NCBI GenBank assembly: GCA_027460525.1
Contig: JAPZAS010000030.1
Span: forward strand, 1-37,962
DNA length: 37,962 nucleotides
Direction: 5' to 3'
Source of the DNA: Candidatus Methanoperedens sp.
GTDB lineage: Archaea; Halobacteriota; Methanosarcinia; Methanosarcinales; Methanoperedenaceae
The notes below the pieces were generated by a model. That model was given only the letters and a program-made list of their open reading frames with translations, did no database searches and had not been told where the DNA came from. Each line of letters starts with the position of its first letter. The stretch's first letter is position 1. A program made the translations under genes and the position numbers. Of the stretch, positions 4,579 to 7,841 are shown in pieces.

Positions 4579-6378
4579 TTATGCTTTTACTTCTTGTCTG
4601 TATCTGCCTTTTGCGATACTCACAATGTCCCTGGGAATAGAGTGTTTGTTGATTGTTAAATAGTTTTCAATTAGCTTTAATTCGTTCTGGTATGCGGATG
4701 CGATTAATTGTGCATACTCAAGACCATCGCTTGTCAGAACATACTCGTATCGCTGCTGCCACCTGCCTTTTTTTTCAAAATACCGCAGGTCCTCGTCCAC
4801 CATTCCCATTGCCACAAGAAGCTGAATATCCTCAAAAAGCCTGTCGCTGTACGGGAAGCCATAGCGGTTGTGGAACTTATAATCGAATAGATTGCGCAGC
4901 CTGTCTATTTTTTCAAATTCCCTCACAAGGCGGTATATCAGGTTAATATTGCGAAGCCTTGGCATTGTGATTCTTCCTTCCGCTTCCCTGCTGAACATCC
5001 TGTGCGCGCTGTAGAAAATAAGAAGAAGACCTTCGATGGGCAGGTTGTTCTCATTCCTGATAAAGTGCAAAAGCTTTGGGGACAGGCTCTCAATACCGAG
5101 CAGGAAATCGTGAGACGCCTGGGATAGCGAGGAATCATCCTCTTTCCTTGAAAATATGCACAGCGATATCTGGCGCGAAATCGCCCTTACAAGCCCATTA
5201 GCCAGGGTGGATTCGTCATAGAAAAATCCTTCTTCCTCCCCGAGTTTTACCCGGGTGCTTTTGGGGATTCCACTTGCGATATCAAGGTCTATAAGCACAG
5301 GAGCGCCGTATTTTTTCGCAAAACGTTTTGCAAGCTCATCTTCAAACATCTTCCTGGCAACACCATTCCTGGCAATGGTTGAAAGCGCCATTCTTGTCAA
5401 CGGATTGAGGTTCTTGTAGGTAAAACGCGCAACTGCATTGCAGATGTAACCGTTTCGCAGGTTCAAGACCAGTTTTTTGGAATTCTCATCCCCATTGGAT
5501 TCTATAAAATTCAAAAGGTCGCTGTCTATGTATGAAGTGAAGAATTTCGCCATTGTTGTCCTGACATCGTTCCCCGATTTTTCATATAAGCCAAGCGCTT
5601 TTTCAAGCGCGTGGAGAAGCATCACCCTTGCTCCCTGCGTTCTGGGATTATGGATAATCGCGGAATAATGATGCGCCCTTGCAATCAGCATGGATTCAGC
5701 GGCTGTGAGCGCCATATCCTCGTCGTAACTCTGTGAACCGCCCAGTATTACCCTGCCGTTGTATAGCGACATGCTTCCTATAATCTGATCCAGGTCCACA
5801 AGCCCGAGAGAGACGCCCGTGTGGTATGAATCGCGAAGCAGGAAATCAATCCTGTCAGCGTCTATGTCGTTTGAGATTATCTGCGCAAGATAGGGTTTTG
5901 AAACCGCATCAACATCGCCAGTTGCCATCCGGGCGATCTCTTCAAAGAACGGCGCGCCTGCAAGTGTTGCAATTTCAGGCTTTGTATGGAATGAATTTGC
6001 TATGATGTATTTTGTGAACATCTCGTGGTTCAGGAAATTCTTTCCATTGATCACTGGCTGGTATAACGGGTTTCTTTTAAGGACGCTTTCCACGACATGC
6101 GAGAATGCGCAGTGCCCCACATCATGGAGAAGGGCTGCAATCCTGATTTTTACTATCTCCTCCTGCGATAGACCCAGTGCTTTTGCCATTTTATCTGCGA
6201 TGAAGAGCGTACCCACGCTGTGCTCAAAACGCGTATGGTTGGCGCCAGGAAAGGCGAGGTCGGCAAGCCCGAGCTGCTGGATGCGGCGCAGGCGCGCCAT
6301 CTCCGGGGTGTTGATGATGAGCTGCTCAAGCTCGGTTATTGCAATGTGACCGTAGATGGGGTCTATGATGGAGGGCAT
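4579..6378 (-). CDS. HD-superfamily phosphohydrolase (COG1078, dNTPase/SAMHD1-like)
   Basis: This 599-residue protein carries an N-terminal HD domain with the metal ligands in order. His53 lies in TRFEHSVGT, His85-Asp86 in ALLHDVGHCAFSH, and a later Asp in the NDIDADRIDFLLRDS segment. The opening (DPIYGHI, TPEMARLRRIQQLG) is typical of COG1078 proteins, which are related to dGTPases and SAMHD1. The rest of the protein is helical and includes a winged-helix-like C-terminal part. The likely activity is hydrolysis of a (deoxy)nucleoside triphosphate or another nucleotide; substrate is not known. It is transcribed toward the small membrane peptide gene. Confidence 0.88.
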   Translation of the reverse strand: MPSIIDPIYGHIAITELEQLIINTPEMARLRRIQQLGLADLAFPGANHTRFEHSVGTLFIADKMAKALGLSQEEIVKIRIAALLHDVGHCAFSHVVESVLKRNPLYQPVINGKNFLNHEMFTKYIIANSFHTKPEIATLAGAPFFEEIARMATGDVDAVSKPYLAQIISNDIDADRIDFLLRDSYHTGVSLGLVDLDQIIGSMSLYNGRVILGGSQSYDEDMALTAAESMLIARAHHYSAIIHNPRTQGARVMLLHALEKALGLYEKSGNDVRTTMAKFFTSYIDSDLLNFIESNGDENSKKLVLNLRNGYICNAVARFTYKNLNPLTRMALSTIARNGVARKMFEDELAKRFAKKYGAPVLIDLDIASGIPKSTRVKLGEEEGFFYDESTLANGLVRAISRQISLCIFSRKEDDSSLSQASHDFLLGIESLSPKLLHFIRNENNLPIEGLLLIFYSAHRMFSREAEGRITMPRLRNINLIYRLVREFEKIDRLRNLFDYKFHNRYGFPYSDRLFEDIQLLVAMGMVDEDLRYFEKKGRWQQRYEYVLTSDGLEYAQLIASAYQNELKLIENYLTINKHSIPRDIVSIAKGRYRQEVKA

Positions 6379-6431: not shown

Positions 6432-6542
6432 ATAAATTGAGTGAGGAGAGTAAGCCCCTTTATGTTTAGCGCAAAGGTAGTACCTTTGTAGCACCCTACG
6501 GCATTCAGCTATGCGCCGTACTCGGACAGGTCTGGACTGCCT
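6432..6542 (-). ncRNA. Duplicate 3' fragment of RNase P RNA
   Basis: About 107 nt match the 3' third of the full RNase P RNA gene (7211-7317). Two blocks are identical: 6436-6473 and roughly 6500-6540. The hairpin between them differs but stays paired: the stem arms CAAAGG/CCTTTG here replace AAGGGC/GCCCTT in the full gene. This fragment also retains the 3' strand of helix P1. No 5' part is present, so alone it cannot make a functional RNA. It bounds the DUF5678/protease module on its downstream side. It looks like a displaced 3' end left by an insertion into the gene. Confidence 0.85.
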
Positions 6543-6560
6543 TTGTTTGAGAACCTATAA

Positions 6561-6932
6561 TTACTTTTTACTCACCGAGAGCGTTGAATTTATTCCATTA
6601 AAAGTTACGGCATAATTGTCTATCACCGCTCTGCCGAGAAGCACATCTCCCACTTCCTGATAGAATACTATCACGTCCCTGTGCAGTTTCCCGAGGAATT
6701 CCACATCTAATTTTGTGTACCATGTTGTAATAGCGCCGCCTACAACTGAAATAGATGTCACTCGAAAGCTTGTGATATTTAATTCCTCCCAGACGTCTTT
6801 CGGAATTGCTATGGAATCCGAACCTGTATCAACATAGGCTAAGGCTTCTTTTTCACGACCTGTCGAAGGATTTATCAGCTTAATTACAACTAAAGGATCA
6901 TTGTCAATATAGGAAAAAGTGTTATCAAGCAA
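6561..6932 (-). CDS. Retropepsin-like aspartic protease (module 1)
   Basis: This protein of about 123 residues is a single-domain clan AA protease. The catalytic motif VDTGSDSIAIP is followed by the hydrophobic GRAVIDNY flap/core region, as in retropepsins, which act as dimers. The frame is open upstream to a TTG at 6989, but that overlaps the preceding gene by 53 nt. The TTG at 6932 falls just after the upstream stop and gives the same distance to the catalytic Asp as in the second module, so I prefer it. It sits downstream of, and is probably translated with, the DUF5678-like gene. Both lie between duplicated RNase P RNA 3' ends. Substrate unknown. Confidence 0.8.
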   Translation of the reverse strand: MLDNTFSYIDNDPLVVIKLINPSTGREKEALAYVDTGSDSIAIPKDVWEELNITSFRVTSISVVGGAITTWYTKLDVEFLGKLHRDVIVFYQEVGDVLLGRAVIDNYAVTFNGINSTLSVSKK

Positions 6933-6936
6933 ACGT

Positions 6937-7179
6937 TCACGCCCTGAAAACACGCGCAACCGTTGATTTTTTCCCCACTCTTCTAACAAGTATCTTATGA
7001 TCCGGGCATAACCTATCGATTAATTTATCCACTTCCAATAGCGAATCCGCTACAGCAGCAAGTTTTTCTGCATCTAAATCTATAGCTATCACTTTACCCA
7101 AGTACCTGCTCTCCCACTCCTTTTTATTAGATTCGTATATTTTATTTGCTTTTGCCTCGAACTCGGTTTTTTTAAGCAT
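6937..7179 (-). CDS. DUF5678-like small protein (module 1)
   Basis: This 80-residue protein has a charged helical N-terminus, then YLGKVIAIDLDAEKLAAVAD, a helix (LLEVDKLIDRL) and the strand ILVRRVG. This beta-beta-helix-beta layout resembles DUF5678 proteins, which often lie beside aspartic protease genes. The ATG at 7179 has GGGAG about 5 nt upstream. It starts 34 nt beyond the 3' end of the RNase P RNA, so read-through from that strong promoter is plausible; a TATA-like stretch (7195-7210) could also serve. It may be a substrate, inhibitor or targeting partner of the protease. That is inference. Confidence 0.65.
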   Translation of the reverse strand: MLKKTEFEAKANKIYESNKKEWESRYLGKVIAIDLDAEKLAAVADSLLEVDKLIDRLCPDHKILVRRVGKKSTVARVFRA

Positions 7180-7212
7180 ATAAACTCCCTATGCTATTTA
7201 TGAATATAAATT

Positions 7213-7538
7213 TGAGTGAGGAGAGTAAGCCCCTTTATGTTTAGCGCAAGGGCAATGCCCTTATCGCGCTTATGCAGCATTCAGCTATGCGCCGTACTCG
7301 GACAGGTCTGGACTGCCCTTATTGCCCTATTTCGGCTTGCACCCGCGGGGATTCGCCGTTCCACCCGCACACGCATGACCTCATTCTTTCGAACTCATCG
7401 CATATCTGCGCAGCGGTATCGTTTCTGTTCCAGAGCCAGGATTCTCACCCTATGCCCTTAACAGGCATCCGCGGTCCAGAAGGTGAGGGGACTTTCCTCA
7501 GCGAAATCTCGCCGGCAGCCGCCCTTCCTCTCTCGGTC
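7213..7538 (-). ncRNA. rnpB: RNase P RNA
   Basis: The RNA subunit of RNase P matures tRNA 5' ends. On the minus strand the conserved blocks appear in order: GAGGAAAGTCCCC (7487-7499), ACAGAAACGATACCG (near 7414-7428), GGTGGAACGGCGAATCCCC (7347-7365), GTGCAAGCC, and the 3' GGGGCTTACTC (7225-7235). Helix P1 forms between GAGAGAGGA (7526-7534) and TCCTCACTC at the 3' end with one mismatch. Length is about 325 nt, normal for an archaeal type A RNA. A TATA box lies about 26 bp upstream. Its last 105 nt are duplicated at 6432-6542, so this 3' part may have been supplied by an inserted element. Confidence 0.94.
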
Positions 7539-7555
7539 TACAATTAAACCTGTTG

Positions 7556-7570
7556 CCGTTTATATCTACC
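7556..7570 (-). promoter_or_regulatory. TATA box of RNase P RNA gene
   Basis: On the minus strand the sequence is ggtagatataaacgg. Its centre is about 25 bp before the predicted RNA 5' end near 7538, the standard archaeal spacing. It overlaps the last codons of the acylphosphatase gene, so the RNA gene has its own promoter inside the upstream coding region. Confidence 0.65.
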
Positions 7571-7841
7571 GACGCAGTGCAAACCCTTTAAGCTCCCCTT
7601 TATACTGTTCCTGTACAATTCCCACATCCTCCACCCTTGCATATTCCGGTCCTCTCCTGCACCACTCTATCATCTTTCTAACATTTCCCTCTTCACCCTC
7701 AAAAACAGCTTCAACCCTTCCATCGGCAAGGTTCCTAACCCAGCCGCTGACGCTCAGTTCCTCTGCCTGATCCTTCGTACTTGAGCGGAAGAATACCCCC
7801 TGAACTTTCCCTGAAATGAAAACATGAACCCGGATATTCAT
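7566..7841 (-). CDS. acyP: Acylphosphatase
   Basis: The enzyme hydrolyses acyl phosphates such as carbamoyl phosphate and 1,3-bisphosphoglycerate. The 91-residue length is normal for the family. The signature GKVQGVFFRSST supplies the catalytic Arg (residue 19), and GWVRNLADGRVEAVFEG supplies the catalytic Asn (near 37). It is a small cytosolic ferredoxin-like fold. The next gene downstream is the RNase P RNA, whose promoter overlaps the end of this gene. Confidence 0.95.
   Translation of the reverse strand: MNIRVHVFISGKVQGVFFRSSTKDQAEELSVSGWVRNLADGRVEAVFEGEEGNVRKMIEWCRRGPEYARVEDVGIVQEQYKGELKGFALRR

Follow-up and report, generated by a model that had tools for sequence, protein, structure and literature searches.

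A second 3' end of the RNase P RNA gene beside a two-gene module marks a recurrent insertion site in Methanoperedenaceae

In a stretch of 37,962 nucleotides from a Candidatus Methanoperedens genome, referred to as the window in the following, the RNase P RNA gene (rnpB) is followed by two small protein genes and an orphan copy of its own 3' end. The DNA at 6439–7213 probably entered at the rnpB 3' end via a single crossover with an rnpB end borne by the module itself. Comparison within the family unveiled that the rnpB 3' junction is a recurrent insertion hotspot and broader than one element, which had been missed by the initial annotation of this DNA.

Results

The second rnpB 3' end in the window

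The genome of the window (G000, contig C30) comprises 2.4 Mb, and its genus-mates belong to Candidatus Methanoperedens. The locus consists of the following features:

7566–7841, minus strand: acylphosphatase gene (PF00708) on the other side of rnpB, the control junction, with constant distance and no insertion in 15 genomes
7214–7534, minus strand: rnpB, complete archaeal RNase P RNA gene (RF00373, RNaseP_arch, 200.8 bits, model positions 1–288)
7214–7320, minus strand: copy 1, the rnpB 3' end within the intact gene, direct repeat with 6439–6545
6439–7213, minus strand: inserted unit of 775 bp, module plus one rnpB 3' end (repeat spacing 775–776)
6937–7179, minus strand: first module gene (ORF), DUF5678-like 80-aa protein with homologues at rnpB in G033 (81%) and G013 (76%)
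6561–6989, minus strand: retropepsin-like aspartic protease with VDTGSD motif, true start uncertain (PF13650, E 5.4e-7; homologue in G033 82%, at rnpB)
6439–6545, minus strand: copy 2, orphan rnpB 3' end (86% over 110 nt), with the native HD-gene promoter region behind it
4579–6378, minus strand: HD-domain protein (PF01966), native rnpB neighbour in empty sites (35–67 nt off rnpB in six genomes)

The match of the window rnpB to the full-length RNaseP_arch model of Rfam identifies an intact RNA gene at one end of the arrangement. Copies 1 and 2, corresponding to the last ~107 nt of rnpB, were aligned by BLAST as a direct repeat with 86% identity over 110 nt (E about 1e-31), and the earlier statement that the 3' part of rnpB occurs twice was thus correct in its coordinates and main description. 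The proposed covariance-model check gave a divided result, with 200.8 bits for the full gene and a sub-threshold 19.6 bits against Rfam for copy 2 alone. The junction behind copy 2 is identical in kind to the rnpB junction of the empty sites described below, from which the 775-bp unit is absent (G002, G003, G009, G014, G019 and G028).

The spacer between the copies is made up of two overlapping, operon-like ORFs. The initial annotation had named them DUF5678 and retropepsin, and only the second name held, PF13650 being matched with 30.7 bits against a cut-off of 24.3. For the 80-aa protein of the window itself no match to PF18929 (DUF5678) was obtained, and two of its homologues reached this family below threshold (E 0.01–0.05). 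Neither gene of the window's own pair belongs to a known toxin or antitoxin family; it comprises a retropepsin and a weakly DUF5678-like protein only. A predicted structure of the latter was set aside owing to its mean pLDDT of 52. A more distant second family of DUF5678-like and retropepsin pairs was observed elsewhere in Methanoperedens genomes (L077–L081, L084), with the gene order always the same and tightly coupled. In G033, the retropepsin gene is apparently split at about 9480–9780 of L075 by about 290 bp containing a run of N; the ends of the interruption, GTGGGTAA...TTACCCAC, point to a small insertion with terminal inverted repeats, past which the original C-terminal codons resume.

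Empty and occupied junctions among relatives

For comparison, the rnpB regions of 33 genomes of the family were collected and their neighbours mapped. Six species (G002, G003, G009, G014, G019 and G028) display an empty site with the HD gene 35–67 nt past rnpB, whereas inserts of roughly 0.2–5 kb occupy this position in G000, G005, G006, G010, G013, G016, G017, G018, G021, G022, G025 and G033. With G023, where the rnpB contig closes with a HEPN gene and the HD contig opens with the partner MNT gene, the occupied junctions number at least thirteen; in the remaining genomes rnpB and the HD gene lie far apart or on separate contigs. Insertion is one-sided, because the acylphosphatase gene keeps a constant ~33 nt from rnpB, with no insert, in fifteen genomes (0/15 on this side versus 13/19 on the HD side, Fisher p 4e-5).

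The comparison of related genomes that had been suggested with the sequence therefore yielded both single uninterrupted sites, in six species, and the same module at rnpB in other genomes. An entry at the rnpB 3' end that leaves the gene intact, as previously proposed, is corroborated by these empty sites, by the HD promoter past copy 2 and by recurrence in two other genomes. The two-copy arrangement, whose presence in all relatives would have spoken against insertion, was seen in three of the compared loci only.

Several further features of these loci were recorded. rnpB and the HD gene are no longer adjacent in G001, G004/G020, G007, G008/G012, G015/G024, G030 and G031, and the core genes close behind rnpB vary there (thermosome subunit, aminotransferase, shikimate dehydrogenase region), indicating that rearrangements, too, break at the rnpB 3' end. 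Upstream of rnpB, the genomes fall into two groups by a ~700-bp difference in the DUF7121–acylphosphatase interval (G003, G004, G018–G022). The sister species G019 and G002 (L066, L052) carry a palindromic insertion of 24–47 nt, TTGAAAATCC...GGATTTTCAA, within the rnpB body, which is still a good family match.

Twelve of the at least thirteen inserts contain toxin–antitoxin (TA)-like or defence genes. The DUF5678-like/retropepsin module is found at rnpB in G000, in G033 of another genus, in decayed form in G013 and as a remnant in G026, where a HEPN-MNT copy lies 2 kb away. HEPN-MNT occupies the junction in G018 (BLZ2), G006, G016 and G023, with remnants in G005 and G021. TumE and a partner were identified in G010, a second, different HEPN/MNT pair in G025, a MazF/PemK toxin with a TIR-STAND-TPR protein in both G022 and G018, and a single large, secreted-looking protein in G017. 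The inserts of the relatives thereby represent known toxin/antitoxin families (HEPN PF05168, MNT PF01909, TumE PF20126, PemK/MazF PF02452).

Limits of the duplicated ends

The rnpB 3'-end pattern occurs twice in G000 and G033 and at most once in each of the 236 remaining genomes of the class; outside Methanoperedenaceae no second rnpB 3' end was found in the class by this exact pattern, from which the second copy of G018 deviates by a 1-base deletion. In G033 the DUF5678-like/retropepsin module lies between two rnpB ends that are 100% identical over 86 nt, and in G018 HEPN-MNT lies between ends with 95% identity over 82 nt. The DNA past copy 2 in G018 corresponds to the DNA directly 3' of rnpB in its near relative G022, which possesses the matching site without HEPN-MNT at that point. 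In G032, a shortened 'mini RNase P' proved to be an assembly gap (N letters) and was discarded.

In all three genomes (G000, G033, G018) copy 2 terminates exactly at the rnpB end, while its left end varies (rnpB position about 212, 236 and 242, respectively) and the preceding spacers are unrelated. Variable limits of this kind would not be expected of a fixed attachment core. Furthermore, most inserts at rnpB have no second rnpB end: it is absent beside the modules of G005, G006, G016, G021 and G013, and modules of this kind stop within a few bases of the last stop codon.

These limits bear on the rival that survives best, namely an ordinary gene-exchange hotspot in which the host recombines conserved flanks (rnpB, HD gene) by homology and thereby swaps the content between them; the second rnpB end would arise secondarily, for instance through integration of a circularised fragment that starts inside rnpB. 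The missing integrase, the variable left ends and spacers, the lack of copy 2 in most inserts and a neighbourhood that looks mosaic between species would all suit this explanation. Nevertheless, we consider it rather unlikely, since insertion is one-sided and never hits the acylphosphatase–rnpB interval although conserved flanks exist there as well, the window module has close homologues at rnpB only, and copy 2 ends exactly with rnpB in every case.

Mobility of the modules

Homologues of the window's DUF5678-like gene with at least 76% identity are located only at rnpB (G000, G033, G013), the next best reaching 43%. Likewise, HEPN homologues with at least 84% comprise five rnpB-linked copies and one elsewhere (G024), with the next best at 31%. 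Close homologues of TumE, by contrast, are dispersed over many places. The modules of G000 and G033 share 84–86% DNA identity, compared with 74.7% for the adjacent HD gene, and the G000 module is thus nearer to that of G033 than to that of its congener G013 (78%). The HEPN genes of G006 and G016 are 87.9% alike and their hosts' DUF7121 gene 95.9%; host grouping was rejected for HEPN (p-AU 0.035). In this small data set, module identity across genera and the discordance between HEPN and host suggest horizontal movement.

Alternatively, the modules could be old vertical residents, originating from one ancient tandem duplication of the rnpB 3' end together with the module, and the empty sites would then be precise deletions between rnpB and the second end. 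HEPN-MNT is indeed common to the junctions of G005, G006, G016, G018, G021 and G023, a second rnpB end would permit precise loss, and copy 2 has diverged in BLZ2 and in the window, so that the insertions there are not brand new. We regard long vertical residence as improbable, however, with respect to the higher similarity of the G000 and G033 modules than of the neighbouring gene across genera, to the HEPN/host discordance described above, and to the presence of four different modules at the same site in four close relatives in the tree (DUF5678-like/retropepsin in G000, HEPN-MNT in G006, TumE in G010 and the second HEPN/MNT pair in G025).

Hairpin and origin of the two copies

The two copies differ in a hairpin whose stem reads AAGGGC/GCCCTT in copy 1 and AAAGGT/ACCTTT in copy 2. 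Two complete pair exchanges with six of six pairs intact confirm that the hairpin is held paired by compensatory changes, as had been noticed before. The stem differences affect 4 of 12 positions, and from position counting alone two full exchanges would arise by chance in about 3% of cases; judged by this expectation, copy 2 probably descends from an RNase P RNA of a different type that was once functional. Its stem is common only to G032, a member of another genus, and that of the intact copy to G026. The earlier proposal that one copy stems from a diverged lineage is thus plausible from the G032-like stem and the covarying pairs, but only plausible and not proven, because the overall similarity of copy 2 to G032 (88.0%) and G005 (87.7%) is about equal. 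With regard to a possible import of the intact 3' end along with the module, the rnpB 3' end of G000 groups with that of G026 (98.7%) and the rnpB body of G000 is nearer to G001/G006; in trees of the rnpB body a grouping of G000 with G026 was not rejected. Since both hairpin arms occur together in both copies, the crossover must lie outside the hairpin. With a crossover before the hairpin the element would have supplied the present rnpB end, with a crossover after it copy 2, and either is compatible with the data.

A role of copy 2 as a small RNA with a function of its own or as a regulatory element (terminator, RNase P decoy), selected together with its hairpin, is highly improbable despite the covarying pairs of the window copy, as copy 2 is present in three compared loci only and with differing limits, the BLZ2 copy has substitutions and two deletions against its own rnpB, none of them compensatory, the position is upstream of the HD promoter and, as far as can be read from the DNA, outside the HD transcript, and the minimum-energy form of copy 2 folded alone is one other than the hairpin.

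Discussion

Entry by a single crossover between two rnpB ends, the reading we prefer, would begin with carrier DNA, possibly a small circle or replicon, in which the module lies beside its own rnpB end. A single crossover between the carried and the chromosomal rnpB ends would leave one of them to complete the gene and the other stranded on the far side, ahead of the HD gene. The recombining enzyme would be encoded elsewhere, and the DUF5678-like/retropepsin genes may be kept as a pair with an addiction or defence function, which is probably also true of their HEPN-MNT counterpart.

In agreement with the initial annotation, no integrase is encoded between the copies or in the downstream stretch, and none was found in the relatives up to about 12 kb from rnpB. 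A search of the locus and of viral, phage and plasmid collections yielded no recombinase, circle or autonomous relative. Viral contigs contained neither an rnpB 3' end nor a DUF5678-like protein, and plasmid and phage records returned no rnpB end or module, only short, low-scoring Paenibacillus phage matches. For the crossover itself, a tyrosine recombinase acting in trans, which would fit the tRNA-like anatomy, is possible at somewhat less than an even chance. Host homologous recombination over the ~80–110 nt of shared rnpB is a slightly more tentative candidate and fits because the start of copy 2 varies and an integrase is missing. The unit could also be the relic of a larger element whose integrase was lost; this is unlikely, although it would account for a cargo that consists almost exclusively of TA-like or defence genes, because such genes resist loss. 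A more far-reaching reading, which we hold to be doubtful, treats the rnpB 3' end as an attachment site used by a cassette-like exchange system in Methanoperedenaceae, in which a recombinase encoded at another place would move addiction or defence cassettes below 1 kb, each bearing its own rnpB end, into and out of the position behind the essential ribozyme gene.

The RNase P RNA gene hereby joins the RNA genes that serve mobile DNA as landing sites, in archaea without tested genetics. The locus provides a compact natural series, comprising the empty site, four module types, decayed forms and inserts with and without a second rnpB end, from which gain, decay and loss of TA and defence modules can be read. 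If an enzyme acting in trans exists, the sub-kilobase substrate would represent a small model of archaeal integration.

tRNA and tmRNA genes are standard targets of mobile DNA, which integrates at their 3' ends. In a large island survey, tRNA/tmRNA genes accounted for 33.8%, coding sequences for 43.4% and intergenic regions for 22.8% of the sites (PMC12424338), which suggests that surveys sorted in this manner would class rnpB sites as intergenic. In the window, as with tRNA/tmRNA islands, an essential RNA gene is hit at its 3' end and left complete, a second end lies on the far side and relatives have empty sites; unlike such islands, the window has rnpB as target, a unit below 1 kb, no integrase and variable crossover limits, and in many rnpB inserts the second end was lost or never present. 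With the hotspots of TA and defence islands (HEPN-MNT, TumE, MazF) the locus shares the type of cargo found at rnpB in relatives, but the rnpB site is fixed, the RNA gene end is duplicated in three cases and the window's own pair is no described TA system. Integron cassettes resemble the modules as short one- or two-gene units that are exchanged at one fixed site beside a conserved gene, and differ in that no integrase gene was found near the rnpB locus and no cassette array is formed.

The previous remark that no described element uses rnpB in this way agrees with our literature search, in which subscription journals were partly covered and no direct report of rnpB as an integration target was encountered; duplicated rnpB 3' ends as such are nevertheless known from E. 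coli. In E. coli K-12 (L127) rnpB is followed by three spaced 113-bp repeats, in each of which about the final 24 nt of rnpB recur, and these repeats were described in the 1980s. The E. coli rnpB end in Acinetobacter 'phage' records was rejected as a precedent, as these contigs carry chromosomal rnpB beside prophage. The E. coli repeats resemble the window in their extra rnpB 3' ends directly downstream of the gene, but they are tandem and enclose no cargo genes. What appears to be new is consequently the link with exchangeable modules, and not the duplication of the rnpB 3' end by itself.
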